Below, piece by piece: positions 1,951 to 21,425 of a DNA stretch of 55,846 nt (positions are counted from its first letter, which is position 1; each line of letters begins with the position of its first letter). The stretch is taken from assembly GCA_016937255.1 (NCBI GenBank), contig JAFGWG010000105.1:1-55846 (forward strand), read 5' to 3'. The notes under the pieces are model-generated. The model was given only the letters and a program-made list of their open reading frames with translations, was not told the origin of the DNA and did not search any database. Origin of the DNA: Bacteroidales bacterium. GTDB taxonomy: Bacteria; Bacteroidota; Bacteroidia; Bacteroidales; DTU049. The position numbers were made by a program, and so were the translations under genes.

Positions 1951-2508
1951 CTAAAAAATTATCCCCTCAATCCTTTTCAACCATCCCTTTAAAAACTTCT
2001 CATTCTGACCTTTCTTTGAAATGGCGATATAGAAATCTATCCGTGCTTGTTTTATGGCAGTAAAAAGCAAGTGAGGGTCGCATGAATCAATTGCAGCAAG
2101 GGTCTTGTTCCCGATAATGCCGTCAACAATAAGATGATGCCCAAAGTCGCTGTTAAGAACTCTTTGAACGCCTTTGCTTCCATACCGACCGCTGTTTACG
2201 CACCAGTCAAATATAATCTCCTGCAACGCCCCGTGGTTTATGGATTCTATGCGGTTCGTATGGTAAAATGTATGTCTGTAAAAGACTTTGACCAGTTCAT
2301 ATAATTCTGAAATGTTTAAGTTTTGGTTATGGCGTATTTTCCCATGTTCAGCTTTGTAAGCATCAATTATTTTCCAGCCTCTCCAGGTTGGATGCAGGTT
2401 TCTGGCTACCCCAATATACGTTTCGCCTCCCCTGTCTCCTTCAACATTGGCATAAAAACCTTCATGCTTTATCACTCCTTCAAATAATTCATCAAATGTC
2501 TTTTGCAT
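1951..2508 (-). CDS. Endolysin, GH108 N-acetylmuramidase
   Basis: The 185-aa product has the GH108 catalytic domain at residues about 6-100, with the signature HEGFY (catalytic Glu16) followed by GGETYIGVA. A C-terminal PG_binding_3 domain (residues about 108-180, including VQRVLN and VDGIIGNKTLAAI) binds peptidoglycan. The enzyme hydrolyses the glycan backbone of murein and is the usual endolysin of Bacteroidota phages. There is no signal peptide, so release would depend on the adjacent holin-like protein. Its start overlaps that gene by 17 bp, and it is the last gene of the long minus-strand operon, ending before a terminator. Size and order are normal for a lysis gene. Confidence 0.93.
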   Translation of the reverse strand: MQKTFDELFEGVIKHEGFYANVEGDRGGETYIGVARNLHPTWRGWKIIDAYKAEHGKIRHNQNLNISELYELVKVFYRHTFYHTNRIESINHGALQEIIFDWCVNSGRYGSKGVQRVLNSDFGHHLIVDGIIGNKTLAAIDSCDPHLLFTAIKQARIDFYIAISKKGQNEKFLKGWLKRIEGIIF

Positions 2509-2935
2509 TTTTCTTTCGTTTTAGATTTACACTGTTTACTCCTGAAATTGCACCGCCGAAAAGGAAGTCTATGATTGTGCTTAGTTTGGTGGATATACCG
2601 CCATTGATACTGCTTACAAATGCAATCTGCCAGTCTTCGAGCTGAATCTTCTGGAAAATGAAATAGTTCAGCATTATGTATGTCAGTCCGCACCACGCAA
2701 CCAGAAAGAATATGGCAAATATTTTCTGCAGCCAGCTGTCCTGCTGATACATTTCCCGAGCAGAGCCTCTGTCTGCAACAGCCATTTTGAAAAGCTCCAT
2801 TTTCCCCTGGAGCTTTTCTTCCTGTGTAGTGAATATTTCATCAATGAGCTTTGTCCCTTCTTTCAGAGTTGCGGCTGTACCTGTATTGAATAATTTCTTC
2901 AATATTTTCATGTACTCTATAGTTTGTTCAGGCAT
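2492..2935 (-). CDS. Holin-like membrane protein
   Basis: The 147-aa protein has a cytosolic N-terminal helical part (residues 1-65), a hydrophobic segment at about 68-92 (LQKIFAIFFLVAWCGLTYIM), and a second, weaker one at about 103-130 ending in DFLFGGAISG. It is basic at the extreme C-terminus. Such proteins directly upstream of GH108 enzymes in Bacteroidota phages act as holins that let the endolysin reach the periplasm. The assignment rests on topology and position; no lysis activity can be read from sequence. It overlaps the endolysin gene by 17 bp, which suggests translational coupling. Confidence 0.75.
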   Translation of the reverse strand: MPEQTIEYMKILKKLFNTGTAATLKEGTKLIDEIFTTQEEKLQGKMELFKMAVADRGSAREMYQQDSWLQKIFAIFFLVAWCGLTYIMLNYFIFQKIQLEDWQIAFVSSINGGISTKLSTIIDFLFGGAISGVNSVNLKRKKNAKDI

Positions 2936-2941
2936 TGCCTG

Positions 2942-3283
2942 TTAATTTTTCTCTACGAATTTCAGTATCGTATCAAGCTTTTCATTGAGCTGTTTTATGG
3001 TCTGGTGGAACAGTTCCTTGCTCACATAAATCTCTTTTGAGCTGTCCCGTAAATCGGAAATCCGTTTGTGCAGAACTGCGAATTTATTCTCGCACGAATC
3101 CAGCTCCTTAGTCAGATGCTGAATGTCCTTTTCAAGCAGGTCGGTTTTTGCATCAACTGTTTCCTTTGTAGCATTTTTAGAAATAGCGTTTCGGATGATA
3201 ACGAGCAGAATCCCAACTGCCAGCGATCCGGTTGAGCCTACTGCTATCCAGAATAATTTTAACATCGTCTCTTCCATGTTCAA
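2942..3283 (-). CDS. Membrane-anchored coiled-coil protein, spanin-like
   Basis: The 113-aa product has one N-terminal membrane segment (residues about 8-32) followed by a long charged heptad-rich helix (residues 40-110). This is the layout of an inner-membrane spanin subunit or a holin accessory protein. It is six bases upstream of the holin-like gene in the lysis cassette. No outer-membrane lipoprotein partner with a lipobox is visible nearby, so the spanin call is tentative. The start could be the first ATG or the third codon. Confidence 0.65.
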   Translation of the reverse strand: MNMEETMLKLFWIAVGSTGSLAVGILLVIIRNAISKNATKETVDAKTDLLEKDIQHLTKELDSCENKFAVLHKRISDLRDSSKEIYVSKELFHQTIKQLNEKLDTILKFVEKN

Positions 3284-3300
3284 TCAATACATTTAGTCCG

Positions 3301-3906
3301 TTAGAAAATTTTAACCGTTTCTGAGCTTCCTCCCGGAAAGCGGTTTTTCTCCATTGTCGCACACCTGTTCTCGATATGCATGATAGCATCGACATCATGC
3401 TCCCAGTCCGTTCCGCCTTTCGATGTCCCGTCACGGTTTGCCTTGAAGACGAGAATGAAAGATGTGTCGGGAAACTGTCTTTTGAGAACTTTAAACTCTT
3501 CTGGTTTCATGCCAACAGTCTGCGTGCTGTCCAAAAACACTGCATTATACCCCTTGAACTGTGCAGGGTCATAGTTCTCCACAAAGTCAATTGGGCTATT
3601 TATTTGCAACCGCAATAGCTTTTCCTGAAGCGAGCCTTTTATACCTTCTTCATTGGATACATACAGCACTTTCAGACCGCATTTTACCAGAAGGTCAGCA
3701 AGCAGCATTGCCACAGAACTTTTTCCGTGAAACCGCTGACCGTAGATCATCAGGTAAAAAGGGATATATGGTTTGCCGAGCAGCTTTGCGAACTTGCCAC
3801 GCAGGGTAAGCGTAGAAAATTTCATCTTCGCCAGTTCATGTGCAGATACAACCTTATTCGGGTCAACCGTTGCTGTTTTTGTCATTATTGAATTTCCAGC
3901 CCTCAT
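3301..3906 (-). CDS. RecA-fold P-loop ATPase, replication or packaging candidate
   Basis: The 201-aa product has a Walker A motif GQRFHGKSS at residues about 54-62 and a Walker B-like strand NAVFLDST at about 124-131, with an intervening VLYVSNEEG segment typical of the RecA/RadA/DnaB-like group. It has no zinc finger, Lon or helicase N-terminal domain and is about the size of single-domain packaging ATPases of tailless viruses such as PRD1 P9, although P9 belongs to the HerA/FtsK branch. Two roles remain open: helping replication or powering genome packaging. It is the only small ATPase in the element. Start could also be MTKTATV, seven residues in. Confidence 0.75.
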   Translation of the reverse strand: MRAGNSIMTKTATVDPNKVVSAHELAKMKFSTLTLRGKFAKLLGKPYIPFYLMIYGQRFHGKSSVAMLLADLLVKCGLKVLYVSNEEGIKGSLQEKLLRLQINSPIDFVENYDPAQFKGYNAVFLDSTQTVGMKPEEFKVLKRQFPDTSFILVFKANRDGTSKGGTDWEHDVDAIMHIENRCATMEKNRFPGGSSETVKIF

Positions 3907-3944
3907 ATCAGAGCCACTACTTATGGGCTTTTGAGCAGTGGCAT

Positions 3945-4868
3945 TTACTTTCCCAGCCCAGAAATGCCCTGTAATCCTTTTAACTGGACATTGGTGATAA
4001 GCAACTTATCGCTTTCCAGATAATCATTCAGGTGTTTCTGAACATTCTTGACCTGTTCATATTCCTTATCTGACCGTTTCACCTTGCCATTTTTCAATGA
4101 ATTGGTTATGCTTGTCAAAAGCCTCTGTGCTTTGGCTTTTGTAATATTTCCGTACAGATTTATGAAACGCTTAATCAATCCCACAGCTGGTGTAACCCCA
4201 TAGCTGTCAACGATTCCTTTCAGTTTCTTGTATGATGAATCAGGTACTTCAAATGTGCAAGTGCCATTCATTTCCCTGTAGGTTTTTATCAGATCATTGC
4301 TGATGGTTTTGATTTCACCTGCATATCTGCTCGTTTTTCGGATGGTCTTTTCCGTTGCAGCTTTCTGGATAACCTTATACAGAAGCGACACTTGACGCTC
4401 TGAAACTTTCTTGCCATGAAAATTGAGATAGCGTTTAATAATCTTAATTTCTAATGGCATCAGGTCAACTTCATGGGGCTTTCGTTTTGCCGTTTTCTTT
4501 GCTGGTGTTTTAGCAGATGCAGCTGGTTCCGGCTTCTTTTTCGGAGCTTGTTTTGACTTGGCAGAGGGCTTTTCTTTCTGCTTTGTGCTCTCCCGGTATT
4601 CTTTCAATGCAGCTTTGTACTGGCCCGATTCCTTATCCAGAATATTCAACGGATGCCTGTCCGGCAGGTCAGGGAAACGCTTTGAATTGAGATATGGCTC
4701 GACAATCTTGAAATGGTTATCAAGCATCTCCTTTATATCCTTGTCTTCGTTATAGAAATCGGCAAATGAATCAAATTCCTTGTGAGCTTCCTGCGCTGCA
4801 TCGGGCAGTTCCTTGAAATCAATATCCTTCGTTGCCTCCCTGTAGTTTTTTACTGTCAGTTTCATCAT
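3945..4868 (-). CDS. Lysine/alanine/proline-rich protein ending in SGLGK
   Basis: The 307-aa soluble protein has an acidic N-terminal region (1-90), a very basic K/P/A-rich linker at about 95-135 resembling histone H1 tails, and a C-terminal half of helical segments (140-290). I do not recognise a named domain. The basic linker suggests nucleic acid binding. Its C-terminus ends in LKGLQGISGLGK, a Gly-Leu-Gly motif shared with the putative structural proteins. It lies between the helicase gene (27 bp) and the small ATPase (38 bp). A role in genome condensation or as a processed core protein is inference. Confidence 0.75.
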   Translation of the reverse strand: MMKLTVKNYREATKDIDFKELPDAAQEAHKEFDSFADFYNEDKDIKEMLDNHFKIVEPYLNSKRFPDLPDRHPLNILDKESGQYKAALKEYRESTKQKEKPSAKSKQAPKKKPEPAASAKTPAKKTAKRKPHEVDLMPLEIKIIKRYLNFHGKKVSERQVSLLYKVIQKAATEKTIRKTSRYAGEIKTISNDLIKTYREMNGTCTFEVPDSSYKKLKGIVDSYGVTPAVGLIKRFINLYGNITKAKAQRLLTSITNSLKNGKVKRSDKEYEQVKNVQKHLNDYLESDKLLITNVQLKGLQGISGLGK

Positions 4869-4895
4869 ATTGTATTTTATAGTTATCAGTTGGAA

Positions 4896-7800
4896 TTACA
4901 ACCCTGCTACTGCTTTGAGCTGTTTCTGCTTAATGAGGATTGCCTTTGCACGGAGCTTCACAAGTTTCAGATGTTTTGCCTTGTCAAGATTTACCGCTTT
5001 GCCTTTGGGTATGGACTGCTTCTGCTTTGCCAGACGTTTCGGGAAATCACGTTTATCTGCCTCAAACATTTTCATAGCTTCTTGAGTAAGGCTGTCGGCA
5101 GATGAACTTCTGTCTGTCCCTTTCTCAATATATTCATTGAAATAGTTCCGTGGAATTTTCACCGATAGGCTGAATCGGTCGCCAAGGAGCTGGATGAGCT
5201 TCGGCATTTTCGTTTCAGCTACAGAAGCCCTCATATTGCCCGAAACCATTTCAAACCCGTCACGGCTGTTCATGCAGAGGGAAATCACGTCCTTATCTGT
5301 ATAGATGGGGATATGCTGTTTCTTCTTTGGCATGATGACACGGAACGTATCATCAAAATGGCGGCCGATGCTGATTCCGTTCTCAGTGGCAATGGAGGAA
5401 CCAGAACGCAGGCTCATAATATGCTTTTGCAGCTTTGCAATCGGGGCAACGACATAATTATCAGCTTTATTGTCGCTGCTGTCAGGCGACCATGCCTCGC
5501 TCATCAAGATACCTTTCTTGACACCTTTGCCTTTGGTTGTGAAGCTCACCAGCTTGCCGGGGAAATCAGCCGACCCCTGCAAGATATTCCCTGTAACGAT
5601 ATAGCGAACCTGCCTGTCAAGGGAAAAATCCTTTATCGCTTCATCCCAGCGGTCAATCAGGCTCTCTTTTTGTGATGCTGTAAGCTGAAAGCTCCGTGCC
5701 TGAATGCGTTCAATTTCCTTTGCCGTATCTCCCGAAGCTGGAAGGACAATGTATTTTCTGCTGTCAGCTATTGCAAAGCGGAGCTTCACAGCCGATGGTG
5801 CATAAGGGTTTCTCCGTTTCGAGTTTATGTCGAATCCCAAGAAGATGCAGTATGAATTGCTTGAACTGTCAGTTTCAAAGCTCAGTGCAGGATAGAAATA
5901 TCCGTGACCGACCTTGAAGAATTTGAAGAAGCCATTCAGATAGTTTTTCCTGTTTTCGCTCTGCGTCCTGGTCTTTGCTATATCCGCTGTTTTTGCTTCC
6001 TGAATTTCTTCTGTGCGTTCAGCAACATAGTCTTTCTGACCAGCCTTGTCGTAAACAGGAATTTTCTGATAGCCTTTTTCTTCGGTGATTCCGTCCAGAA
6101 GCTCCTTGTATTTTACCTCCAATGCTTTCAGATCGGCTGAGAGCTTATCCTGAACATACTTTTCGTGAGCCGAGACTATTTCTTCAGAAATAGCATCAGA
6201 CTGTTTTTTATCAAGAGACTTTTCTACAAGCTTTGACAGTTCAGCTTTGCCATACGGTTTTTTGAGTACGTTGCATTCGCATTTTTCCAGATAAGTATCG
6301 TTGCCGAATACAGAACGCCCTCCTTTGCCTGCAATTACGACACGCTTTTCTAGCGATTCTGCTTTCAAATCCAGAATCTCTACTTCAAGGTCATACTCAT
6401 CAGCCTGTTTCAGGTATTCCACATAGTCATTGTACCGCTCGATAACTTCGGAATAGAATTTCTCCTGTTCCTTGACCGAAAGCACAGCCACACGCCCAGT
6501 CACTTTTGAAGCATCGCCTTCCGATGCTGTTTCATCACTGTCTTTCCCCTCAAATTTGAGAGGGTTGTCCAGTGATTTGTTCAGCTCAGGGTTTTCAAGC
6601 ATATACTGGCGGACAACCTTGTCTCCGTACTTATTCAGAAAGTCATCCGATTCAAGCTGGCTCTTGCTGTTCTTCTGGTTGGAAGTCGTATTTGCATCCA
6701 ATGATTTCAGCTTCTTTTTGAGCATCATCATAAACCGCTTCTGTGCAGGGATGGATGAGATAATGTAGTCGTAGATCGGTTTCATTATCTGGCCAGTCCT
6801 GTTGATACGCCCACGTTTCTGAATCTCGGTATTGATGTTCAGTTCAGGCTGCAGTATAACCATTACCCTCTGCTTCACCTTTTCGGCTGGCACCTTATCA
6901 GTGACAACCGCATGTGCCGATGCACCTGTTGAACCGCTCTGGTTAATCAGCAGGCAGTCAATTTCATTGTCATTGAACTGGCGGAACAGGTCTGCGGTAT
7001 TTTCCTTTTTACGGCTCATCACCAATGCCGAGGTATTTTTGGAGCTGGTTGATTTATACTGAACACAGAGTTTCCTCCCTGTAACTTCGCCACAGGAATA
7101 ACCAGCATCCTTTATCTTCTGAATAATCAGATCAAGCGGGCTGATTGTAATGCCAGTTGAAGCCTGTTCAATCCTTCTCAGAATATCACGGTATGCAAGC
7201 TGGGCTTCCTCTGACAGATCAGCAATATTGAACTGCTTGCCCTGAGATTCCCCGTCAATATCCTTTTCCGTATAGCGTAAAACCGAATCCAGCCCCTTTT
7301 CCAATACCGTTGAGAAATCACCGTTTATCACATCTTCGGGTTTTGCCATTCCCTCTAAAAAGCTCCCCATTGTAGAGGCAAAGGCGATAATCGGTTTCTT
7401 CCCCTCTTTCAGCCTGTTTATCGCATGGTCGGCAACATCAGAAGCATTCAGGCTGAACAGCAGTTGGTTTATGACATTGAAGACCTTGGAAAAGTAAGGG
7501 ATATTGTCAACCCCTGCTTTCTCTGTTCCTTTTCGGGTTTCAACCTCCTTGCTTTCCCCAGCCGCAATCTTGTCCAGCTGTTCAACCTGTTTGTTAATGT
7601 GCTTCTCCTGAAATCCGATAATGTCACGGATTATGGCGGTTATCTTATCGGCAATATCAGCCTGCTCTTTTGCTTTTTCTTTCAGCTCGATGTAATTGAC
7701 TTCGACCCCTTCAAATGAACGCTCACGCCTTATCATCTGCCCCTCAGAAACCAGCTGGGCTGCCAAAACTTCCTGCAAAGCAACACCGCCTTTCGTAATC

Positions 7801-8813
7801 GCCTCAACCAAATCCTCCTTGCTCATATTGGCATCGCTCATTGATGTTTTCTGTGCATAAATGGGCATATTGTCGGGGCGTTTTGCAAAAGTTGCAGAAA
7901 GGAAGCAAACGCCTTTTGTCTGCCGCAGGACTCCCTGCATAAACTCGCCAGTGTTTGAGCTTCCCGAAGCGTTATGGGCTTCGTCCATGATTATTATATT
8001 GCCATTGGATGCGGAATTCAAGAACACCTGCTTTGCTGGCTTCTTCGGCTGGTTGAACTGCGAATAGGTGGCACAGACGAAATTGTAACTGCTGGGTATT
8101 TCCCTGCTTTTAATAATCCGTTCCTGTGTCGGTTTTTCGGGGGCTGTATAAACTATCTCACCGCTTTTGTCCTTTATGTTAGTCTTGCTTTCCTTGGTAT
8201 TCACAATGAACGGAACCAGTGCGGAGCTTCCAATATCAGACAAATCACGGTAGAGGTCGGTAAACAGGTTCGGTTTCTCTGACAAGAACACCGGCTGCAG
8301 TCCGCTTTTTACTCCATAGCGTATCAGTGCGGCAGCGGTTCTTCCTTTGCCGATACCCGTCTGGTCACCGACAATAATTCCCTGCCGACGCTTCTCAATA
8401 TTGTAAATTGCCAGAGAAACAGCATCAATCTGTTCGCATGAAAGTGATTTTACAAGCTCATCATTGCTGTAATCGAGTTTCTCTGCAACATAGTCAAACA
8501 GGGGCATCCCGATACTTTTCTTAACTTTCCGGATAGCTATGTGCATTTCATGCCCCATTGATTCAGGCACGGTTGTATCCAGGATAAAACCTTTCTCTGC
8601 TGTTGGAATATATGCCATGCCCAGCCCTTTATGACCGAACATCCCCTGCAAATATTCATGCTCGTTCTGAGCCAGCTTTTTGGTGCGGACAAAACTTTTG
8701 CTGTTCGCAGTTTTGAAGCCAAGTTCGATCAGCCTTGCCGATATATGTTCAGGGGGAACAGTACCGAATGTTATGGCAATACTGCTTCTGCATATTTTAA
8801 TATCTGATTTCAT
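4896..8813 (-). CDS. Strawberry-notch type SF2 helicase (DarB-like)
   Basis: The 1305-aa protein has the strawberry-notch AAA_34 helicase domain: Walker A GDQTGIGKGR near residue 150, DEAH near 275 followed by the SAT motif. The C-terminal helicase domain follows at about 450-720, with the arginine-finger region QKRGRINRTGQ near 666. The remaining 550 residues are charged and unassigned. Phage P1 DarB combines an N6-adenine methylase and this helicase in one large protein that is packaged in the head and protects incoming DNA from type I restriction; here the methylases are separate genes just upstream. Residues 1287-1298 form a basic motif shared with the C-termini of both methylases. The start overlaps the upstream gene by 17 bp. 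Confidence 0.9.
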   Translation of the reverse strand: MKSDIKICRSSIAITFGTVPPEHISARLIELGFKTANSKSFVRTKKLAQNEHEYLQGMFGHKGLGMAYIPTAEKGFILDTTVPESMGHEMHIAIRKVKKSIGMPLFDYVAEKLDYSNDELVKSLSCEQIDAVSLAIYNIEKRRQGIIVGDQTGIGKGRTAAALIRYGVKSGLQPVFLSEKPNLFTDLYRDLSDIGSSALVPFIVNTKESKTNIKDKSGEIVYTAPEKPTQERIIKSREIPSSYNFVCATYSQFNQPKKPAKQVFLNSASNGNIIIMDEAHNASGSSNTGEFMQGVLRQTKGVCFLSATFAKRPDNMPIYAQKTSMSDANMSKEDLVEAITKGGVALQEVLAAQLVSEGQMIRRERSFEGVEVNYIELKEKAKEQADIADKITAIIRDIIGFQEKHINKQVEQLDKIAAGESKEVETRKGTEKAGVDNIPYFSKVFNVINQLLFSLNASDVADHAINRLKEGKKPIIAFASTMGSFLEGMAKPEDVINGDFSTVLEKGLDSVLRYTEKDIDGESQGKQFNIADLSEEAQLAYRDILRRIEQASTGITISPLDLIIQKIKDAGYSCGEVTGRKLCVQYKSTSSKNTSALVMSRKKENTADLFRQFNDNEIDCLLINQSGSTGASAHAVVTDKVPAEKVKQRVMVILQPELNINTEIQKRGRINRTGQIMKPIYDYIISSIPAQKRFMMMLKKKLKSLDANTTSNQKNSKSQLESDDFLNKYGDKVVRQYMLENPELNKSLDNPLKFEGKDSDETASEGDASKVTGRVAVLSVKEQEKFYSEVIERYNDYVEYLKQADEYDLEVEILDLKAESLEKRVVIAGKGGRSVFGNDTYLEKCECNVLKKPYGKAELSKLVEKSLDKKQSDAISEEIVSAHEKYVQDKLSADLKALEVKYKELLDGITEEKGYQKIPVYDKAGQKDYVAERTEEIQEAKTADIAKTRTQSENRKNYLNGFFKFFKVGHGYFYPALSFETDSSSNSYCIFLGFDINSKRRNPYAPSAVKLRFAIADSRKYIVLPASGDTAKEIERIQARSFQLTASQKESLIDRWDEAIKDFSLDRQVRYIVTGNILQGSADFPGKLVSFTTKGKGVKKGILMSEAWSPDSSDNKADNYVVAPIAKLQKHIMSLRSGSSIATENGISIGRHFDDTFRVIMPKKKQHIPIYTDKDVISLCMNSRDGFEMVSGNMRASVAETKMPKLIQLLGDRFSLSVKIPRNYFNEYIEKGTDRSSSADSLTQEAMKMFEADKRDFPKRLAKQKQSIPKGKAVNLDKAKHLKLVKLRAKAILIKQKQLKAVAGL

Positions 8814-9462
8814 ACGCTTGCTGTTTTTGCTTGATGGTAATTGCTTTTGATTTTATCCGTGCAGAACCTGATTTTTTAGATTCGCTGAAAACATGAAGCC
8901 CCAGTTCTGGATGCACACAGTTCCGCAGTACCTGTCCTCCGTCATGGTTGCCTTTGTAATAAATATTTCCCTTATAGCTGTAGCCAAGCCATTTTTTCAA
9001 TTCTGCTGGAGCTGCTGAAAAAAAGCCTTTCAGTTCGGGTGCATCAAATGGTGCAATGCTGTAATTGCTCCAAAACAGATGCCTCCCGATTTTTACAGAA
9101 GGTTCGACTAACGGATCATAATATGGCGTTATATTCTCGACAGCCCAGCTGCCATCAAAGAAATATTTCAGAAGGAGTATTTCTTCATACAGCTTCAAAT
9201 CAGGATATGTATTGATGGTATGCCGTGTAGCCCTCATCATCTTGCTGTGGCTCTGGCACGGAGGACTGCTCCATATAAAGTCATATTCACGGAAATGATT
9301 AAGCAGGTATGCATGTGCATCGCCTATAACCAGCTTGTCCTTTGGAAAAAGCTTTCTGTAAACCGATGCAATCTGCTCGTTATTCTCAACGGCAGTTACA
9401 TTCACGTTTTTCCAATACCTGCGGTTTCCGCCAAGGCCACTATATAAGTTCAGTACTTTCAT
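8797..9462 (-). CDS. DNA cytosine C5-methyltransferase-like protein
   Basis: The 221-aa product begins with a C5-methylase motif I (LNLYSGLGG, residues 4-12) and has motif IV SSPPCQSHS with the candidate catalytic Cys near residue 69. It is short: the target-recognition region and motifs IX-X of full C5-methylases are not evident, so specificity is unknown and it may methylate in a partner-dependent way. Residues 203-214 are the IKSKAITIKQKQ version of the C-terminal motif shared with the helicase and the adenine methylase. ATGA overlap with the upstream methylase and a 17-bp overlap with the helicase show translational coupling of a three-gene module. Confidence 0.85.
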   Translation of the reverse strand: MKVLNLYSGLGGNRRYWKNVNVTAVENNEQIASVYRKLFPKDKLVIGDAHAYLLNHFREYDFIWSSPPCQSHSKMMRATRHTINTYPDLKLYEEILLLKYFFDGSWAVENITPYYDPLVEPSVKIGRHLFWSNYSIAPFDAPELKGFFSAAPAELKKWLGYSYKGNIYYKGNHDGGQVLRNCVHPELGLHVFSESKKSGSARIKSKAITIKQKQQAYEIRY

Positions 9463-10556: not shown

Positions 10557-10565
10557 CCTCGGTTG

Positions 10566-11066: not shown

Positions 11067-11075
11067 AGTTCCCCC

Positions 11076-13319: not shown

Positions 13320-13361
13320 TGCAAAAATATTTTTAGTTCGTTGTGTTTTTTATTATCGCCC

Positions 13362-13961: not shown

Positions 13962-13975
13962 TGCCGTGCCGTGTT

Positions 13976-14452: not shown

Positions 14453-14476
14453 GGTATCAGTTATTAGATAATCAGG

Positions 14477-14653
14477 TTAAATGTATTTCAAAGCGGTTTT
14501 TACAATTTTGGGGTTCTTGGCTACCTTGGTCAGAAGCTTAATCATATCTTGCTGTTCAACCTTGTTCACCGCATTCTGCAAAAGGTTTCCTACCTGTTGC
14601 ACTGTGTCTGCGGTATCTGCTTCGATGGTAATCCCTACTTTGAATTTTTTCAT
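14477..14653 (-). CDS. Small 58-aa protein
   Basis: Starting at MKKFKVGI this encodes 58 residues: a short beta strand, then two amphipathic helices (about 14-35 and 38-57). An upstream in-frame ATG at 14674 would add seven residues but sits nearer the preceding gene. No family is recognised. Operon position and codon use like its neighbours support a real gene; a small virion or assembly protein is plausible. Confidence 0.6.
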   Translation of the reverse strand: MKKFKVGITIEADTADTVQQVGNLLQNAVNKVEQQDMIKLLTKVAKNPKIVKTALKYI

Positions 14654-14710
14654 GATAATAGATTTTAGAGCCAAGATTCAAGAACCAAGACTGCTGTTAA
14701 TATGTATTGA

Positions 14711-15823
14711 TTAATCCTCTAAATCTTCAATTTCAAGGTTGTTGCTTTCGGCTTCCACGACTCCTTGAATGGACTGATTCAGGAACATGAGTGTTTTATT
14801 AATGAGTTCAGCCTTGTCAAGGCACAGACCTACGATATTGGCAATCTTGGCTACATCTTGCAACTCCCATGTAGAAAGGGCTTCCGAAAGGTTTTTGATT
14901 ATTGCAGCTTTCTGTTTGTCCTCTGGTGACTGAGGTGTCCCCATTTCAGTAATTTCCACATTAGTCTGCGGAATAAGGGCTGTATCCTGGGGTTCATCAT
15001 CCACGATCCCCAATGCACCTTTCAGCTCATCGGGAGAAAGCCCAAGCAGTTCTGCCGTCTTCGGGCTGTTGCTCAGCAAACGCCCACCGATACCTGAAAT
15101 GACACCGACAGCGACACGCTTCATCAATTCATTTGGTGCATACCCTGCAAGGCGGTTTTCCAGTTCAGCCTTATCGCTTTTCAGTTCCCTGTTTTCACTG
15201 TAATAGCGGTCTTTTTCAGCACGGAGTTCTGCATTTTCATTGCGCAGGCGTTCGTATTTCTCTTCAAGCGTACCGTACCGTGTCTCGAATTTGAAATCGT
15301 CAAGCTGTTTCTGGTAGCTTATCCGCTCAACTTCCTTATTGTTTCCGGAAAGGGCATTGAACACTCCGAACAGTCCTTCAAGTTTTGACTTTGCCTGTTC
15401 GTTCTCGCCTGAAAATAACCCCACAAGCGTATCTAGTTCCCCTAATCCGTTTGTGCTGTTCTGTATCTGGTGCTGTTTCATTTCCTCCTGGATGATTGTC
15501 TGTATCTCGGCTCTCTCCATTGGCTCTTTGGGCGGATTCAGAAGCTTGCTCACATTAATTGTATAGCTATTCAGGCTTCTGGCATTGGGGCTTTTGCCAC
15601 CGAAAACATCAACCCTTAAAATTCCGTGTGCCTGCTTTGCCTTTTCAATGGCACTTTCAATATCACGGTTAAACTTTTCAGTTCCGGCAGTCCTAGATGT
15701 CAGGGCAGTCTCATCGACCCCTGATACAAGGTGTATTTCGTAAGCATACGGATATTTCTGTTCGTCTTCGGAACGCTTGATAAATTCGTATATGCTCTGT
15801 ACCTGTTCTCTGTAATCCAACAT
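14711..15823 (-). CDS. Coiled-coil structural or scaffold-like protein
   Basis: The 370-aa soluble protein has an N-terminal mixed domain (1-100), a segment NGLGELDTLVGLF at about 132-144, and a strong coiled coil at about 165-230 rich in E, K and R. A weakly hydrophobic Gly-rich stretch lies at about 240-260, and the acidic C-terminus ends in EIEDLED. No named domain is recognised. Coiled coil plus acidic tail fits a scaffold or an internal structural protein. The NGLGELD motif resembles EGLAELDEL in the transglutaminase-like protein. It is 7 bp from the upstream gene. Confidence 0.75.
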   Translation of the reverse strand: MLDYREQVQSIYEFIKRSEDEQKYPYAYEIHLVSGVDETALTSRTAGTEKFNRDIESAIEKAKQAHGILRVDVFGGKSPNARSLNSYTINVSKLLNPPKEPMERAEIQTIIQEEMKQHQIQNSTNGLGELDTLVGLFSGENEQAKSKLEGLFGVFNALSGNNKEVERISYQKQLDDFKFETRYGTLEEKYERLRNENAELRAEKDRYYSENRELKSDKAELENRLAGYAPNELMKRVAVGVISGIGGRLLSNSPKTAELLGLSPDELKGALGIVDDEPQDTALIPQTNVEITEMGTPQSPEDKQKAAIIKNLSEALSTWELQDVAKIANIVGLCLDKAELINKTLMFLNQSIQGVVEAESNNLEIEDLED

Positions 15824-15830
15824 AATCGTT

Positions 15831-16187
15831 TCAGTTTCTGTGGGGAATGATCTTTACAAATTCCAGCCTGTACGGCTTAAAATCTGCCGACTGGGTTTTG
15901 ATGTCGATATAGTCTGTGAACACCTGATAGCGGTATTCATCCATAAAATCGTATTCTTCTGGTGTTGCAGTAAATATGTTGTCGCTGCTTACCATTTCCA
16001 GTTCCTCAATGCTTGCAGGGATTCCTTTTGTGTTGAGAATCCACATGTCGTTCTTCAGGTCCAGCGAAATATCTGCACCTGTAATATTTACAACCACAGG
16101 CTTCAGCTGGTAGCTGTCGATAGTCCGCATACCTGCAACACGGTCTTTCGCTATGCTATGCAGTAACTCGCTCGTGTTCATATTCAA
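15831..16187 (-). CDS. Small beta-rich putative virion protein
   Basis: The 118-aa product is soluble, with predicted strands around residues 28-45 (VVVNITGADISLDL) and 85-115. Its start overlaps the upstream gene by 32 bp; an alternative ATG two codons in is possible. I do not recognise the family. Being in the block of beta-rich genes between the coiled-coil protein and the capsid candidates, it is likely structural. Confidence 0.7.
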   Translation of the reverse strand: MNMNTSELLHSIAKDRVAGMRTIDSYQLKPVVVNITGADISLDLKNDMWILNTKGIPASIEELEMVSSDNIFTATPEEYDFMDEYRYQVFTDYIDIKTQSADFKPYRLEFVKIIPHRN

Positions 16188-16944
16188 TATAGATTCTGAT
16201 GGTCAGTGTATTGTCCCCGCTGTTTTTGTTGCTCTTGAAAACCGCATGGAGGTTGCTGTTCACTTCCAGCGGTTCATGGAACGGGATGATCTCCTTGCTC
16301 ATGTTGCGAACCTTGCGGTTTGCTGTTACCATATAATCCCTCAGCAGAAAGCTGTTGCCGTTTACCAATAAGCTGATATTTCCGCATTCGTATGGCTCCG
16401 GACGCTTATAAACTTTTAAAGGGCGGATGAAAACATCTGATTTATGCAGGTATGCAAACATCATTGTCCTCTGTGCTATCAGGTCTGCGAATTCCAGATT
16501 TGAAAGGGTCTTTCCTTTCTCATAAATATCAGATTCGTTGTAGAGATAATCCGCAAACTGGGTATTGAACAGCTCTGCAATGCTGTCATTCAGCGATGCC
16601 TGTTCGGCTTCTGAAAGACAGGTGTACTTGAGGTTATTGCTCAGAATATTTACAATCTCAGGCAGAATGTCCGATTCAAAAAAATCCTTGCTCTCAGCCA
16701 CTGTTGCCCTGGTCCGCAGGTAAGAGTAAAACAGGCTGGTTATCCCTTCACTCAGCAATAAATCAGAAATCAGGTTCTGAGGAAAAATCAAATCCTGCGA
16801 ATCATCTTCAAGCTCAGATTCCTGCTTAACCGTTGCATTTACCGCAATTCCCGTTATGAGCTTGCAGGATGCAGGCAGCAAGTCCTGTTCATTAAAATGG
16901 CTGTTGTCTGCCGAATGCTTCGTTATTACAAAATATCTTTTCAT
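16156..16944 (-). CDS. Putative virion protein with beta-rich C-terminus
   Basis: The 262-aa protein starts with a short strand, has a mostly helical centre (60-165), and ends in an approximately 90-residue beta-rich domain (about 170-258: ISLLVNGNSFLL, later LTIRIYIEYE). No family is recognised and no membrane segment is seen. The C-terminal strand pattern resembles that of the 128-aa neighbour (VRVYLLAEVE), so the two may share a beta-sandwich fold. A vertex, spike-base or minor capsid protein is plausible. Confidence 0.75.
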   Translation of the reverse strand: MKRYFVITKHSADNSHFNEQDLLPASCKLITGIAVNATVKQESELEDDSQDLIFPQNLISDLLLSEGITSLFYSYLRTRATVAESKDFFESDILPEIVNILSNNLKYTCLSEAEQASLNDSIAELFNTQFADYLYNESDIYEKGKTLSNLEFADLIAQRTMMFAYLHKSDVFIRPLKVYKRPEPYECGNISLLVNGNSFLLRDYMVTANRKVRNMSKEIIPFHEPLEVNSNLHAVFKSNKNSGDNTLTIRIYIEYEHERVTA

Positions 16945-16962
16945 TTTCAGGAGATATTGGTG

Positions 16963-17349
16963 CTATTTCTTCTTTTCAACCTCTGCGAGCAGATACACTC
17001 TCACGTTGTAGCTGTCATTGACCGCAAGGTTCTCGCTGTCGTCCTTGTAGATGATCCGTACAGGGCTGTTCTTGGCTTTTTCATCCATCGGGAAAGCAAC
17101 ATCCTTTATGCTCATATCATCGTTGTGATGGAGCAGAGCCACTTCCGTATCATCGGGGATTATCTCGGTATCATCAACCCATACCCTCAGCGTTGCCCCC
17201 GGCAGTGCCTGCGGATTTGACAGCCTGAGAAATATACCCTTGATGCGGTCGTGTTCGGTTTTTGTATTGCCGTTGAACTCGAAGGTCTGGCCTTTCTTGA
17301 CCTCGAACTTCACCACCTGCAGCTTCTTTATGTTTTCTTGTTTTTCCAT
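16963..17349 (-). CDS. Small beta-sandwich protein, minor capsid candidate
   Basis: The 128-aa protein is almost entirely predicted beta: strands around residues 9-17, 20-26, 36-45, 55-65, 85-100 and 110-125. It has the size of a single jelly roll. It lies 18 bp before the 262-aa gene and 75 bp after the 281-aa gene. Viruses with vertical single jelly-roll capsids have a small and a large capsid protein of about this size difference, which makes this pair worth modelling. The assignment is inference only. Confidence 0.72.
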   Translation of the reverse strand: MEKQENIKKLQVVKFEVKKGQTFEFNGNTKTEHDRIKGIFLRLSNPQALPGATLRVWVDDTEIIPDDTEVALLHHNDDMSIKDVAFPMDEKAKNSPVRIIYKDDSENLAVNDSYNVRVYLLAEVEKKK

Positions 17350-17424
17350 GCTTTCCTAAATTGAAAAAGGGGACGGTTCACATACCGCTAGCCGCCCCCC
17401 GAACGATTATGACGTTACAAATAC

Positions 17425-18270
17425 CTATGCTTTTTCGGTGATAGTTCCCAAGAGCGTAATCTTTACTGCAGGGTTGAAAACCTTGTCGCTGTTATTGATC
17501 GCTTTCGGCATATTCAGCTTCGGTGTTATGTCCATCGAAGGTTTCAGCCATTTCGGGTTTGCCAGCTTGTAGAGGAACTTCCGTTTGGTTGTGTCTGAAT
17601 CATCAAATACCGCACATGAGATTTCCGGGATAATGACCTTCGTGCCTAACGTCATCTCGAACGTACCGTTCAGGATTTGCGGAGGCAGTGCAAACTGCCC
17701 GAATGAGAAATCTGCCGGATCAGTATCATCTGCCGAAGCTCCGTGGGCATATTCCAGAACCACATCGGTCAGAAGGAAGTACTTGCCCGAATCCAGCTGG
17801 GCACGGTTCAGGTTGGTTATCCCTGATTTCTTGTCATCCGATGCTTCCATCAGGTCAATATCCGACTTGTCCTTGACCGATTTTATGGTATAGATTGCCG
17901 TGTCAACGGTCTGCATACGTGCATCTTTCAGTGCTTTCTGAATCTCAGGAGGCAGCTGCTGCCTGCGGAGTTCAAACTGCCCTTTTGAAGTGAGGTCTTT
18001 TGTAAGCCCTGTCTTTACAGCGGTACTTTTTGCACCTGCATTGAAAGACCTGCGGACTGCACGTTTTCTATTGCTTTTTCTCTGGTTCCGGCGGTTCTTG
18101 CGTCTACCTCTGCGTCTGTTCCGCCCTAACTCCCCGATACCCTCAACGGCATCGTCCTGGTCTTCTTCTTTTTCTAATGAATCTTCCTCTTTGTCAAGGA
18201 TCGCTTCTTCCAAACCCTCTATGTCGTCCATCGAAGGGTACAAATCTTTCTGCTCATTTATTTCTGCCAT
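17425..18270 (-). CDS. Major capsid protein candidate with basic N-terminal arm
   Basis: The 281-aa protein has an acidic N-terminal arm (1-43), a GIGELG motif at about 45-50, an extremely basic arginine-rich tract at about 51-75 (RNRRRGRRKNRRNQRKSNRK), then an approximately 190-residue beta-rich domain (90-281). Basic arms of this kind bind nucleic acid or the inner shell surface in many viral capsid proteins. A domain of about 190 residues would fit one jelly roll. The gene is early in the operon among other putative structural genes. No similarity is recognised by eye; structure prediction would decide. Confidence 0.75.
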   Translation of the reverse strand: MAEINEQKDLYPSMDDIEGLEEAILDKEEDSLEKEEDQDDAVEGIGELGRNRRRGRRKNRRNQRKSNRKRAVRRSFNAGAKSTAVKTGLTKDLTSKGQFELRRQQLPPEIQKALKDARMQTVDTAIYTIKSVKDKSDIDLMEASDDKKSGITNLNRAQLDSGKYFLLTDVVLEYAHGASADDTDPADFSFGQFALPPQILNGTFEMTLGTKVIIPEISCAVFDDSDTTKRKFLYKLANPKWLKPSMDITPKLNMPKAINNSDKVFNPAVKITLLGTITEKA

Positions 18271-18333
18271 GATAATTTGTTTTTAGGCTCAATAGCCTTG
18301 TTATTAAATAGATATACTGTTGCTTGCTGAAAA

Positions 18334-18993
18334 TCAGGATTCCATCATGTCACCCGAAAAAATATCGTAGTCCATGCTGTCCGGGTCGATCTGTTTAATT
18401 GAGCCGACTTCATCATCATACCCTGAACTGCCTACAGGCTCATCGCTCATCGCATAATCATTTGCAGTGCTTCCGATAGGTTCATCACTCATGCTGTAAT
18501 CTCCGGCTGCACCTGACACAGAAGCCTGAATTTCACGCTCGATGTCAATATCAGCCGCCGGAAGAGCCTGAGTTACGGGATTAAGCGCACGCAATGCACC
18601 TACTTCTTCAAAGTCGGTGTAATCGTCATCGCCTATAATGCCCTCCAAGCCCTGAAGTATCGTTTTGCCTGTAGCCTTCTTGACAATGGCTTCAACACCT
18701 GCTCCGGCTGCACCGACCAATCCCAGCTGCACAAACTGGTTTTTAGTCAGCTGAGTGCCGATAAGACCGCCCATAGTGACGGCTGCAGGAACCAGATAGC
18801 CCGACATTTCAGAGCCTAGCAGACCGCTGACCGTTTCGCTCTTCTGTAGTTTCTTGAGTGCATACTTACCAACTGCAAACCCTGCTACGGCAGCAACGGG
18901 CTTGCCAATGTTGCTGGTAGCTTTCATAAAGTCAACCTTTGTACCTGCGGAGCTTTTCCGTGGGGTACTTGACGAATTCTTTCTAACTGCCAT
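18334..18993 (-). CDS. Membrane protein with acidic repeated C-terminus
   Basis: The 219-aa protein has a basic N-terminus (1-30), glycine/alanine-rich hydrophobic stretches at about 30-50, 65-80 and 85-105, and a motif LQGLEGIIGDDD near 116-127. The acidic C-terminal tail contains near repeats (YSMSDEPIGSTANDYAMSDEP and the like, about 167-195). The hydrophobic part suggests a virion membrane protein. The LQGLEGIIG motif closely resembles LKGIDGIIGELG in the transglutaminase-like protein upstream. The family is not recognised. Confidence 0.72.
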   Translation of the reverse strand: MAVRKNSSSTPRKSSAGTKVDFMKATSNIGKPVAAVAGFAVGKYALKKLQKSETVSGLLGSEMSGYLVPAAVTMGGLIGTQLTKNQFVQLGLVGAAGAGVEAIVKKATGKTILQGLEGIIGDDDYTDFEEVGALRALNPVTQALPAADIDIEREIQASVSGAAGDYSMSDEPIGSTANDYAMSDEPVGSSGYDDEVGSIKQIDPDSMDYDIFSGDMMES

Positions 18994-19015
18994 GTTTTTA
19001 AATTTTAATTATTGA

Positions 19016-21379
19016 TTATTGAAGCGAAATGCTTCCAAGTTCTTTCTTTCCGGGTGCAGTGTCTTTTGAAGTTCCGGGTTTGCCCTTTGGCTTGTCATCT
19101 TTCTTCCGGAACAGAAGATAAGCCCCCGTGCCGATCAGGGCTGCGACCCCGATGCCGATGCCGATTTTTGCACCTTTGCCCAGTTTCTTTTTATTCGGCA
19201 GACCGCCAGAATTCTGGCTCATGCCTGTATCTCCTTTTTGCACTACAGAAGGAAATGCAGAGCCTGAACTTGCTGATGAAGATGAACCTGAGCTTTTCTT
19301 AGGAAGCATACTGCTTGCCGAACTTTTGATGCTTGATGCTGATGAAAAGATGTTTTTTATCGGTTTTAGCCATGCACCAATAGTTGCTAGGACACCGCTT
19401 GCAGCGGTTACTGATGCAGCAGTGGCAGGTTCACCCAGTTCCCCGATAATCCCGTCAATACCTTTGAGTGAAAAATCAGAGCTGTTCTGTTTAGCCCCTT
19501 TCAGAATCGCTTTTCTTAGGTTTTCTTCTTTGCCCTGAAGCCCCTTAAATAGCTTTTTGACCTTGCCGTGTACCTTTTTGAGCTTTGCATGCTGGGCTGG
19601 ATCAAGATTATATTTACTGGCAAGATTATCGGGCAGATAAGCATACTGCAGCTTTTTAGAAATTTTGAACATATTCAAACGGAGCGCAGCAAGCAAGCCG
19701 CCCCTGATTGCAATGGACAGAGGGTTGAAACGCACAATTGCCTTTACTACCTTCTTTGCTACCTTGCCGACTTTTTTGCCGACCTTTTTAACTGCTTTGA
19801 AGAACCGTCCTTTCTTTCGCTTTCTTCTTCCCAAGCCGTCCATTTCGTCCAGCTCATCCAATTCTGCCAAACCTTCAATGGCAACCGAATCATATTTTAT
19901 CAGTCCGTTTTCTGCCAGTTTCTCTTCAATATCCGCAAGCTTGTCCAATACACTGTTGCGTTGGGGCGTATTCCAGAACTTGATTGCCTGGTCCAGCATC
20001 GAGATAAATTGTTCGGGGTTCTGGACATGAGCCATCTTGTCCTTGTTATCCTTGTTTTTCAGCAGAAAATCACGGGTGCGGATAAGATATTTTAATGTAG
20101 CATCTTCAGGATCGCCCAGACCGTTTACAGCATCGTCAAAATCAACGCCTGAAACAATTGCGATAAGTTCCTCATGGTCTGTCTGAGCCTTAACTCCGCC
20201 AGCTAAATCAATTCCGGAAAGTATCGAAATCGGCAGACCAAGGCTAGTTTCACCCGTTAAGCCGTTAATCCCACGTATGCCTGCTGCCATCTGCAGCGGA
20301 GACATGTCAAAATCTGACTTTTCAAATGAGTACGGTTTCTGGTAATCGAATTTTGAAAGCACAGGGTCTATTATGATCTCGTCCTCACTGTCACCGACAG
20401 CAGGGACAAACACGTAGATATGCTGAAAATTCTTTCTGCCGTCATATTTGGTAATGCGGAGCTTGAAGGGAATGCCGAGGCATTTCAAAAGAGACCCTAC
20501 GAATATGCTGTAGTCATCGCAGTCAATCCCTGCATCTGAGTTTCCTTTCTGTTTGTATTTGATCTGCCCGTCAAGCCATGACCGTGCTGGCGTGCGGAGC
20601 TGTTCAGTTCCGTCCCTGTCTTTCTGGTATTGCAGGTATGTGTATGAGAAATTGAAGATGTTGCGGCATGTTTCTTTGAGCGAACCGCCCTGCAATTCTT
20701 TGGCAAGCCCTTCGACTTCCCTGTAGTGTGAAGCGATTATATCAATGCAGCTCTCAACGGTTTCAATGACATTGCCGTTTTTGACAAACACTTCATTCCC
20801 GTCAGCCCGTTTGATAAGGTGGTTGAACTTCTGTCCATTTTGGGTATCTCGTGGGCCAGAGACAATACCTAATCCGCCCTTTGCTAGTCCGTTCATATCT
20901 TCGTCTTCTGTTAATGATTGCGTAATTGTGAGAGTTTCACCATTGACCGTAATGGTAAACGTGAAAGTCATGTCCTTTTTCAGCTGTGCAGTATCGGAAA
21001 GTGCCGAAAGGTTCAAGCCTTTGCCCAGAAGGTTCAGGTACGGGACATCAAACTTAATTTCAGGTTCTTTTGAACCGCCTGCCGGAATGGTAAGACCCTT
21101 AATGTCGGGTGTGGAATAAGCAACTGCCGAATCTTTGTAATTGGCAACAACCTGATTTATGACAAGGGTGATGGGTGCTTTTGATGGATTGTAACAGCGG
21201 AGCTTAACGGCAAACTGGACTTCCTGCATGTTCATCTTGTGGATGCGGAAACCCAGCAGGGCGAAGTTCATCTTTGCCCCAGCCAATAGCTTTTTGCCTT
21301 TCTTAATGAGGTAAAATCCGCCGCCAACGGCTGCGACAGCGGCTGCTGTGCCTAATATTTTCTTTGTGCTTGCTTCCAT
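19016..21379 (-). CDS. Transglutaminase-like protein with LEA-type domain and two membrane anchors
   Basis: Starting at MEASTKK (21379) gives 787 residues; a start at 21394 would add five. In order: membrane helix (about 8-28), a LEA14/WHy-like beta domain (about 35-150), and a transglutaminase-like cysteine domain (about 225-370) with Cys287 in GIDCDDYS, His320 and Asp338 as the probable triad. Then come a linker with VNGLGDPED, a MDGLG motif followed at about 530-570 by a lysine-rich amphipathic segment, and a C-terminal membrane helix (near 745-765). It is the first gene of the operon. The triad could cross-link, or cleave proteins or murein peptides. A role as maturation protease is speculative. 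Confidence 0.88.
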   Translation of the reverse strand: MEASTKKILGTAAAVAAVGGGFYLIKKGKKLLAGAKMNFALLGFRIHKMNMQEVQFAVKLRCYNPSKAPITLVINQVVANYKDSAVAYSTPDIKGLTIPAGGSKEPEIKFDVPYLNLLGKGLNLSALSDTAQLKKDMTFTFTITVNGETLTITQSLTEDEDMNGLAKGGLGIVSGPRDTQNGQKFNHLIKRADGNEVFVKNGNVIETVESCIDIIASHYREVEGLAKELQGGSLKETCRNIFNFSYTYLQYQKDRDGTEQLRTPARSWLDGQIKYKQKGNSDAGIDCDDYSIFVGSLLKCLGIPFKLRITKYDGRKNFQHIYVFVPAVGDSEDEIIIDPVLSKFDYQKPYSFEKSDFDMSPLQMAAGIRGINGLTGETSLGLPISILSGIDLAGGVKAQTDHEELIAIVSGVDFDDAVNGLGDPEDATLKYLIRTRDFLLKNKDNKDKMAHVQNPEQFISMLDQAIKFWNTPQRNSVLDKLADIEEKLAENGLIKYDSVAIEGLAELDELDEMDGLGRRKRKKGRFFKAVKKVGKKVGKVAKKVVKAIVRFNPLSIAIRGGLLAALRLNMFKISKKLQYAYLPDNLASKYNLDPAQHAKLKKVHGKVKKLFKGLQGKEENLRKAILKGAKQNSSDFSLKGIDGIIGELGEPATAASVTAASGVLATIGAWLKPIKNIFSSASSIKSSASSMLPKKSSGSSSSASSGSAFPSVVQKGDTGMSQNSGGLPNKKKLGKGAKIGIGIGVAALIGTGAYLLFRKKDDKPKGKPGTSKDTAPGKKELGSISLQ

Positions 21380-21425
21380 AATGGAAACAAACATATTATA
21401 GTCTACAGAGCAGAGTGTTGGTGTT

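Follow-up and report, generated by a model that had tools for sequence, protein, structure and literature searches.

Among the described viruses without tails, SSIP-1 (Salisaeta icosahedral phage 1, NC_017983) is a membrane-containing virus of 100 nm with T=49 and a circular genome of 44 kbp, listed as "single jelly roll?" and left unclassified (PMC6260650, PMC6356626). It has been placed among the viruses with two major capsid proteins (MCPs) of the vertical single-barrel type (PMC4958249), its gp40 has been predicted to be the packaging ATPase (PMC4124505), and according to a 2019 review its genome has hardly any similarity in GenBank (PMC6356626). The deposited genome is a circular double-stranded DNA of 43.8 kb, and the host genus now belongs to the Rhodothermota, which within the Bacteroidota/Chlorobiota group is a sister phylum of the Bacteroidota. 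Here we analyze a stretch of 55,846 nucleotides from a Bacteroidales bacterium (the window, which is the whole of contig C222), whose 20-gene operon (g01 to g20) very probably holds the late genes, for structure and lysis, of a temperate virus with a tailless icosahedral particle and a distant kinship to SSIP-1.

Other described systems resemble parts of this operon. SPV1 (Sulfolobus polyhedral virus 1, Portogloboviridae), which has a single-jelly-roll MCP and is without a genome-packaging ATPase (PMC8812541), provides the solved fold closest to that predicted for g03; however, it is an archaeal virus, and the window operon additionally codes for the capsid candidates g04 and g05, for lysis proteins and for a gp40-family ATPase. 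The Helvetiavirae (P23-77, SH1, HHIV-2 and HCIV-1) have single-jelly-roll capsid proteins to which g03 aligns with Z 6.5-7.2; they own an FtsK-like packaging ATPase (PMC8812541), whereas a general FtsK model finds none here, and their genomes are reported to be smaller (16-19 kb in the Simuloviridae, about 30 kbp in the Sphaerolipoviridae). Phage P1 shares with the window a late operon in which an adenine methylase is coupled to an SNF2-type helicase, and its DarB is a component of the virion head that shields DNA from restriction (PMC5512222). P1 is, however, a tailed phage, and the C-terminal tag described below is unmentioned for it in the available text of the same source, according to which phage polyvalent proteins typically lie near late genes and occur also in conjugative elements.

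The Operon and Its Capsid Candidates

The operon consists of 20 consecutive open frames, picked from the list of open reading frames (ORFs), all on the minus strand between 1951 and 21394. It is intact, the left edge of the window lying 1.95 kb past its end. Its G+C content per kb (2-21 kb) is 0.40-0.48. The opening 2 kb of the window have 0.30-0.32, and to the right of the operon the values are 0.28-0.36 at 21-31 kb and 0.31-0.40 beyond. The genes are under purifying selection (dN/dS 0.02-0.09 where dS is unsaturated) and their order recurs in other genomes, which sets the operon beyond chance. A preliminary description, made from the letters alone, had read here a single minus-strand operon richer in G+C than its flanks, with a GH108 endolysin, holin-like and spanin-like genes, a fibre-type spike, a membrane-anchored RNNNPGN lyase, one small P-loop ATPase and a DarB-like module; all of these were recovered, the spanin-like gene with a weaker match than the others.

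An alignment of the transglutaminase-like protein g01 finds 232 confirmed relatives in species-representative genomes, 80 of which were kept. Presence is counted below in the 66 of these 80 loci that have at least 4 kb of downstream sequence (the roomy loci), with family profiles built partly from the same loci; among the 14 set aside for short downstream sequence, 10 are without g03. Membrane segments were called by a Kyte-Doolittle hydropathy scan with a threshold of 1.6. The genes around the capsid candidates, with lengths in amino acids (aa), are the following:

18334..18993, minus strand: g02, 219 aa, adjoining the capsid gene; a possible membrane protein, with no segment over the hydropathy threshold; in 58/66 roomy loci
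17425..18270, minus strand: g03, 281 aa, MCP candidate, with a barrel (residues 93-281) after an Arg-rich arm; in 66/66
16963..17349, minus strand: g04, 128 aa, second capsid or penton candidate, 98% identical to its counterpart in locus L063; in 60/66
16156..16944, minus strand: g05, 262 aa, third capsid candidate, a g04 paralog with an N-terminal extension
15831..16187, minus strand: g06, 118 aa, conserved small protein; in 59/66
14711..15823, minus strand: g07, 370 aa, coiled coil, scaffold or minor protein candidate; in 62/66
14477..14674, minus strand: g08, 65 aa, conserved small protein; in 46/66
13976..14452, minus strand: g09, 158 aa, with a hydrophobic N-terminal stretch below the hydropathy threshold; in 30/66

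The core of g03 (residues 93-281, 189 residues) is modelled by AlphaFold, from an alignment of 49 sequences, as one barrel of eight strands (pLDDT 93.3, pTM 0.89). The best match among solved structures is chain 6oj0_A of SPV1 (Z 9.3, root-mean-square deviation 3.6 over 150 residues, 10% identity), which we take to be the MCP VP4 of that virus; it is followed by PBCV-1 (Z 8.3), EhV-201 (8.0), an iridovirus (7.7), Faustovirus (7.6), HHIV-2 (7.2) and HCIV-1 (7.0), with PRD1 P3 (6.8), P23-77 VP17 (6.6) and SH1 (6.5) lower down. Every one of the top ten rows of this comparison, which represent seven viruses, is a capsid chain from a virus without a tail. Foldseek also puts SPV1 first (E 2.2e-4, prob 1.00, TM-score about 0.5), in a list that holds Ena3A, the FLiP penton and furin as well. 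The second match of the fold search is BFVD entry I1ZBH9 (211 aa, E 9e-5), which has the same length as gp46 and gp35 of SSIP-1 and may itself be an SSIP-1 protein. The model thus predicts for g03 a single-jelly-roll fold of the capsid type, which answers the jelly-roll check that had been proposed for the first capsid candidate (17425-18270).

A first model of g03, from 9 sequences (pLDDT 57.6), was dropped as the basis for the fold; its comparisons agreed in direction and were superseded. The preliminary description had likened the element to several tailless viruses, PRD1 and PM2 among them. For g03 a capsid-type fold is supported and the double barrel of PRD1 and PM2 is not: this type (Bamfordvirae, to which autolykivirus and FLiP also belong, with a double-jelly-roll MCP) was rejected on the ground that the core of g03 forms one barrel only, which aligns to single barrels of the double-jelly-roll proteins.

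The two further capsid candidates are related to each other (g04-g05 profile comparison, prob 90, E 1.7e-6). In relatives g04 is duplicated or fused in tandem; one ORF of 276 aa (L092 10019-10846, the same as G053 C136) contains two g04-like domains and is possibly a fusion of two single-barrel proteins. In all three comparisons made, pN is lower for g03 and g04 (0.010-0.075) than for any other gene measured. The weak coiled-coil matches of g07 include phrog_233, head scaffolding (E 0.0044).

Kinship with SSIP-1

The remaining candidates for virion, packaging, entry and lysis functions are listed here, with TM for a transmembrane segment:

19016..21394, minus strand: g01, 792 aa, candidate membrane and virion protein with a LEA_2-like N-terminal part, a transglutaminase-like part and a C-terminal membrane segment
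13362..13961, minus strand: g10, 199 aa, RNNNPGN peptidoglycan lyase, anchored N-terminally in the membrane (TM 8-26), entry enzyme candidate
11076..13319, minus strand: g11, 747 aa, spike or fibre containing a 49-aa unit (147 nt) repeated eight times; phrog_31688, 6.4e-7
10566..11066, minus strand: g12, 166 aa, four-helix membrane protein, accessory; in 9/66 roomy loci
3945..4868, minus strand: g16, 307 aa, partner of g17, joined to the N-terminal side of the ATPase in one distant relative
3301..3906, minus strand: g17, 201 aa, P-loop ATPase with Walker A, candidate genome-packaging ATPase; phrog_6891, E 6e-23
2942..3283, minus strand: g18, 113 aa, spanin-like, one TM (12-30) and a coiled coil; phrog_739, E 0.0013, a weak match standing among other coiled-coil matches
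2492..2935, minus strand: g19, 147 aa, holin-like; phrog_3427, E 2.5e-5; TM 72-90
1951..2508, minus strand: g20, 185 aa, GH108 endolysin, homolog of SSIP-1 gp31; Pfam E 1e-16, PHROG endolysin 1e-29

When all 20 operon profiles were run against the 57 proteins of SSIP-1, with E-values scaled to this 57-protein database, matches were obtained for g01 with gp34 (39.6 bits), g17 with gp40 (70.5 bits) and g20 with gp31 (55.8 bits). A profile-profile comparison by hhalign, covering 11/20 profiles and 25/57 SSIP-1 proteins (275 pairs), aligned g01 with gp34 (E 2.3e-11) and g13, a methylase, with gp43 (E 5.2e-9), and g17 also finds gp40 by tblastn (E 1e-5). The kinship extends in this way to four proteins and includes two strong profile matches to virion proteins: the GenBank record labels gp34, gp40 and gp43 as structural proteins. 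SSIP-1 virion proteins beyond these gave no significant match, and a search of IMG/VR for close SSIP-1 relatives via gp40 and gp46 returned only SSIP-1's own record.

SSIP-1 gp34 matches Pfam Transglut_core (8.9e-7), and the only Pfam match of g01 itself is LEA_2 (E 0.017). The residues Cys292, His325 and Asp343 of g01 are identical in all 95 aligned rows that reach these columns, out of 161 rows, some records being counted twice and 66 rows stopping short of the triad. As to the ATPase, gp40 belongs to AAA_25 (RecA-like); of the packaging ATPase foreseen by the preliminary description, the single small enzyme is there and its family is to be corrected accordingly. No match to g17 was found among PDB sequences. 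In a distant relative one protein of 494 aa (G004C4_22) has both g16 and ATPase homology.

The two systems have in common a transglutaminase-like structural protein, an ATPase, a methylase and an endolysin, and the relatives of 42-53 kb are of the size of the SSIP-1 genome. They differ in gene order, that of SSIP-1 being permuted relative to the window operon, and in the DNA enzymes: gp43 is one protein of 2319 aa with a ParB domain, whereas the window has separate enzymes with a shared C-terminal tag.

Markers of Tailed Phages and of Conjugation

The preliminary description had found neither terminase nor portal, and had named these and an HK97-fold capsid as the findings that would speak against a tailless virus. 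Searches with Pfam and PHROG gave no match to terminase, portal or HK97 capsid families among the 20 operon proteins, and the lyase g10 accounts for every PHROG match better than 1e-3 that bears a head or tail label. Single models were also run on six records (the close relatives G059 and G060, three circular plasmids and SSIP-1, the last replaced by the whole M1479 genome for terminase). The one HK97 capsid model (PF05065) is found in 0/6 records and in 4/14 controls, the one terminase model (PF03237) in 0/6 and 6/14, and the one general FtsK model (PF01580) in 0/6 and in 10/14 cellular controls, which contain no helvetiavirus. The HK97-fold MCP, portal and large terminase by which Caudoviricetes are recognized are thus not found in the operon, nor are the HK97 capsid and the terminase in the relatives searched.

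A part of these data might be read as a conjugative or secretion machine with no virus at all. A peptidoglycan lyase and membrane proteins can be part of such machines as well, conjugative elements also contain polyvalent proteins (PMC5512222), and in Persicobacter the operon lies on plasmids. We regard this reading as highly improbable. The capsid-type fold predicted for g03 and the endolysin/holin/spanin-like cassette argue against it, as does the PLSDB typing of all five Persicobacter records as non-mobilizable. Relaxase PF03432, one relaxase family among many, was found in 0/6 records; this is the weakest of the negatives, because the control was positive in only 1/14.

Relatives, Integration and Circular Replicons

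The gene set recurs widely. Genome G015, whose family is a different one within the order, has the full set of 20 genes in unchanged order, and two IMG/VR records (45.0 and 45.8 kb) have 19/20 genes each, lacking g12 and g14, respectively; identities are mostly 60-92% in these, with a minimum of 37% (the G015 spike), and mostly 60-98% when further genomes with this gene order are counted. The hosts of the 80 kept relatives include Marinilabiliaceae, Persicobacter, Chitinophagaceae, Flavobacteriales and Pontibacter, among others, with named strains of Carboxylicivirga, Persicobacter, Marinilabilia and Breznakibacter. Genes g01 and g03 occur together in 66/66 roomy loci; in IMG/VR the transglutaminase alignment finds 7 loci, and g03 is in all 4 distant records searched. 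Gene g03 is present in 5/392 sampled genomes of the phylum and, by protein search, in 6/59 near-relative genomes, the window's own included in both counts. Several genomes have two to four matches to the transglutaminase alignment, a g03 with 85% identity occurs in one genome outside the window's family, and within that family most of the genomes sampled are without g03; together these findings indicate mobility. A literature search, as far as texts were available, turned up no description of this virus family; the elements of ~4.3 kb from ocean viromes (PMC12324425) are different from these.

In the two IMG/VR records, G059 and G060, the operon is part of a larger element, with, in order, a helix-turn-helix (HTH) protein of the HTH_17 (Xis-like) type, a small protein, a CHC2-Toprim primase, accessory genes, the operon, further accessory genes and a tyrosine integrase. 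Pfam supports the primase and HTH protein of G060 and both integrases (Phage_integrase, 2.7e-20 and 4.6e-17), so that the absence of an integrase claimed by the preliminary description does not extend to these two relatives. In Carboxylicivirga sp. M1479 (L051; G065 contig C38) the integrase starts at 125345 and has the same sequence as its G060 counterpart; a 16-bp direct repeat is found at 125067-125082 and 166878-166893, whose left copy overlaps the 3' end of a tRNA-Ser gene (124994-125079) with the integrase adjacent. The repeat bounds an element of 41.8 kb. It owes its weight to its place at the tRNA end: a repeat as long occurred in 0/2000 simple base shuffles, with the right-hand interval picked after the repeat was seen, and in a wider comparison its E is 0.019. 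An integrase and attachment (att) sites, the marks of a temperate integrative element, are thus present together in the relative G060/G065. The Carboxylicivirga att repeat, when sought in the window, was not found there. A second tyrosine integrase lies just outside the right att repeat (G060 41793-43007, L029); neighbouring elements may be stacked at this site.

Other relatives are circular, as had been proposed for a search. The circular plasmid pPP10 of Persicobacter psychrovividus (53,207 bp) carries the operon, with an amidase in place of the GH108 gene, and codes also for ParA, ParB, a recombinase and replication initiation proteins; in Persicobacter sp. JZB09 diverged versions of the operon are on two circular plasmids of 47,579 and 48,789 bp. 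A second, partial operon copy is seen in the 1.07-Mb replicon of the pPP10 strain (NZ_AP025293 417693-433737, L137), with shared segments 93-97% similar; g06-g14 and g20 have no tblastn match in this copy.

These data bear on two other explanations. The first is a domesticated particle, resembling a gene transfer agent or a protein-delivery nanoparticle, which would pack host DNA or tagged enzymes and not its own genome. The window does show a late operon without replication genes, its genome has no close integrase (best match 32%), and the tagged enzymes resemble cargo; however, the close relatives either are circular replicons or are mobile and equipped with integrase, HTH_17 protein and primase, and the two to four hits in several genomes, the 85% g03 identity across families and the lack of g03 in most genomes sampled from the window's family point to mobility, so that we consider domestication improbable. 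Slightly less probable still is the view that the element, as a satellite or phage-plasmid, codes for its own shell but needs a helper for part of its cycle. Some relatives are plasmid-like, with Rep, ParA and ParB, and no DNA polymerase is found among the proteins scanned, which cover the accessory genes in part; but the capsid candidates, spike, lysis and lyase genes are all in one operon, and 42-53 kb matches the size of SSIP-1, itself an isolated virus.

On two small contigs of the window's own genome, C2 (L123) and C126 (L134), there are primase relatives 82% and 78% identical to the G060 primase, together with an HsdM-type methylase on C126. These contigs may be the missing half of the window element or of another one.

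DNA Enzymes and a Shared C-Terminal Peptide

Three adjacent genes code for DNA enzymes:

9459..10556, minus strand: g13, 365 aa, DarB-like N6-adenine methylase; phrog_14770, 7e-12; C-terminal tag KLKAKAIILKQK
8797..9462, minus strand: g14, 221 aa, with a C5-methylase-like N-terminal part (Pfam DNA_methylase 5.7e-9, residues 1-75); C-terminal tag IKSKAITIKQKQ
4896..8813, minus strand: g15, 1305 aa, strawberry-notch helicase, DarB-like (Pfam AAA_34 1.4e-24, Helicase_C_4 2.4e-22); C-terminal tag KLRAKAILIKQKQ

These are different proteins that end in a near-identical peptide, (K/R)xKAIxxKQK, with a consensus of about K-[LM]-[RK]-[AS]-K-A-I-x-[IL]-K-Q-K-Q. The strict pattern is found in 30 ORFs across the window, G059, G060 and the 87 loci L032-L118, a count that includes duplicates (G060 is the same as L032 and L051, and G059 as L033). 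In the loci it marks 21/2046 ORFs, all 21 of the g13 methylase family; the other 9, from the window, G059 and G060, are methylases, helicases and one G059 protein with the Pfam domain LPD1 (large polyvalent protein-associated), a fourth tag bearer. Among the g13-family ORFs whose stop lies inside the locus, 14/19 have the strict tag, 3 a near form judged by eye and 2 neither. The helicases of the window, G059, G060 and pPP10 all end in the peptide (4/4), and on pPP10 helicase and methylase both end in RAKAI(L/M)ILQ(A/K)Q, a parallel change that is expected if both bind one partner.

The presence of one C-terminal peptide on unrelated DNA enzymes suggests that it is probably a tag for loading cargo into the virion, a feature new here; encapsulin cargo peptides are a comparable packing code. 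Alternatively, it might be a docking tail used outside any virion, or one C-terminus spread by recombination. We would put forward, as a tentative idea held with somewhat less than even confidence, that the Bacteroidota harbor a temperate tailless lineage with a RecA-type motor in place of FtsK/HerA, an active virion transglutaminase and enzymes loaded via a single C-terminal cargo peptide.

Neighbouring Genes

Two small genes lie upstream of the operon:

22359..22592, minus strand: DUF4248 protein (Pfam 1.2e-8), candidate regulator
22589..22873, minus strand: 94-aa small protein, homolog of G060_29, which has the same position

The DUF4248 protein is kept in close relatives (G059_07, 65% identity; G060_28, 45%) and is also found in pPP10. 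The 94-aa protein matches G060_29 by blastp (43% over 70 residues, E 3e-12) and G059_06 with E 0.23.

The low-GC block adjoining the operon (23099-31015) codes for an HlyD-type protein, a C39-peptidase ABC exporter, a glycosyltransferase, a GNAT protein, a radical SAM protein and a LanC-like protein, the last matched below the family cut-off. It resembles an export and maturation set for a bacteriocin or a ribosomally synthesized and post-translationally modified peptide, and is possibly cargo; a HlyD/C39-ABC pair is found by Pfam also on JZB09 plasmid 11 (L140 38134-41455). Beside the 3' end of the operon a plus-strand pair (113-1871) codes for a 208-aa protein without Pfam match and an HTH/ImmA/IrrE-like (Peptidase_M78) protein, an arrangement that looks toxin-antitoxin-like or repressor-like. 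Outside the element, at 35966-41101, there is a protein of 1711 aa that, by eye, looks secreted, with many short repeats and a sorting-like C-terminal end.

Discussion

We conclude that the operon belongs to a virus that is temperate, tailless, of the single-jelly-roll type and probably membrane-containing, whose lineage is spread through the Bacteroidota. The integrated tailless, probably membrane-containing virus of the preliminary description is in this way supported by the g03 fold, by the homologs of SSIP-1 virion proteins and by the relatives of 42-53 kb, which also agree with its expectation of a genome larger than most known ones (15 kbp in PRD1 and 10 kbp in PM2; PMC6260650). An internal membrane would be expected by analogy, from the kinship with SSIP-1 and from the membrane proteins of the operon.

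Several points weigh against this reading. No virion has been seen. Direct tblastn searches of isolated phages gave no match for g01 or g03; g03-g05 have no significant sequence match among SSIP-1 proteins (best unfiltered E 0.37), and the match of g07 to gp29 (13.5 bits) is taken as coiled-coil noise. The best Z of g03 (9.3) is moderate: before realignment only 2/995 chains reached Z 8, and a fold from outside the viruses, PHM, already follows at Z 6.9. Clear membrane proteins are few: "at least seven" had been claimed, and the hydropathy scan gives five (g01, g10, g12, g18 and g19), the 1.82 segment of the ATPase g17 being left out of the count. The lyase g10, whose best PHROG is an endolysin (phrog_873, E 1.6e-35), also matches tape measure (phrog_2276, 2.4e-12), head protein (phrog_992, 4e-12) and tail injection transglycosylase (phrog_7182, 9e-11) families, which we take to be the same lytic domain within those proteins. 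The g17 family occurs also in the tailed Mu-like phage Peternella_1 and in a 636-kb phage; it is therefore not a tailless marker, and the ATPase alone was rejected as such a mark. The relaxase negative, with its 1/14 control, lends correspondingly weak support. Finally, replication and integration genes of this copy are missing from the window, a whole contig that ends close to the operon. The copy may be in working order; with primase relatives on other contigs and no close integrase found in the genome, it could also be defective.

If the operon is indeed that of a tailless virus, its life cycle might be the following. The sequences of the relatives support an element that its tyrosine integrase inserts at a tRNA gene's 3' end, and related elements that persist as circular replicons of 47-53 kb. 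Upon induction, 42-53 kb of double-stranded DNA would be replicated with the aid of the primase or a plasmid Rep. The vertical single jelly roll g03, with g04 and g05, would form the shell over an internal membrane holding g01, g10, g12 and others, and the RecA-like ATPase g17, together with g16, would package the DNA into the particles. The enzymes g13-g15 would be loaded via their common C-terminal peptide and would guard the incoming DNA against restriction. The spike g11 would bind the host, the membrane-anchored lyase g10 would open the peptidoglycan at entry, and g18-g20 would lyse the cell.

Prophage searches keyed to terminase and HK97 markers probably miss such viruses; in the available text of PMC12629997, non-tailed phages are sought only by double-jelly-roll, microvirus and inovirus profiles. 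If the cargo peptide is real, it offers a handle on the loading of anti-restriction enzymes into virions. For the single-jelly-roll viruses, for which a portoglobovirus-like ancestor has been suggested (PMC8812541), the family would add a temperate bacterial branch. It supplies SSIP-1, so far nearly alone, with distant relatives, some of them in named strains, so that capsid assembly, membrane acquisition and packaging of this type of virus become testable.

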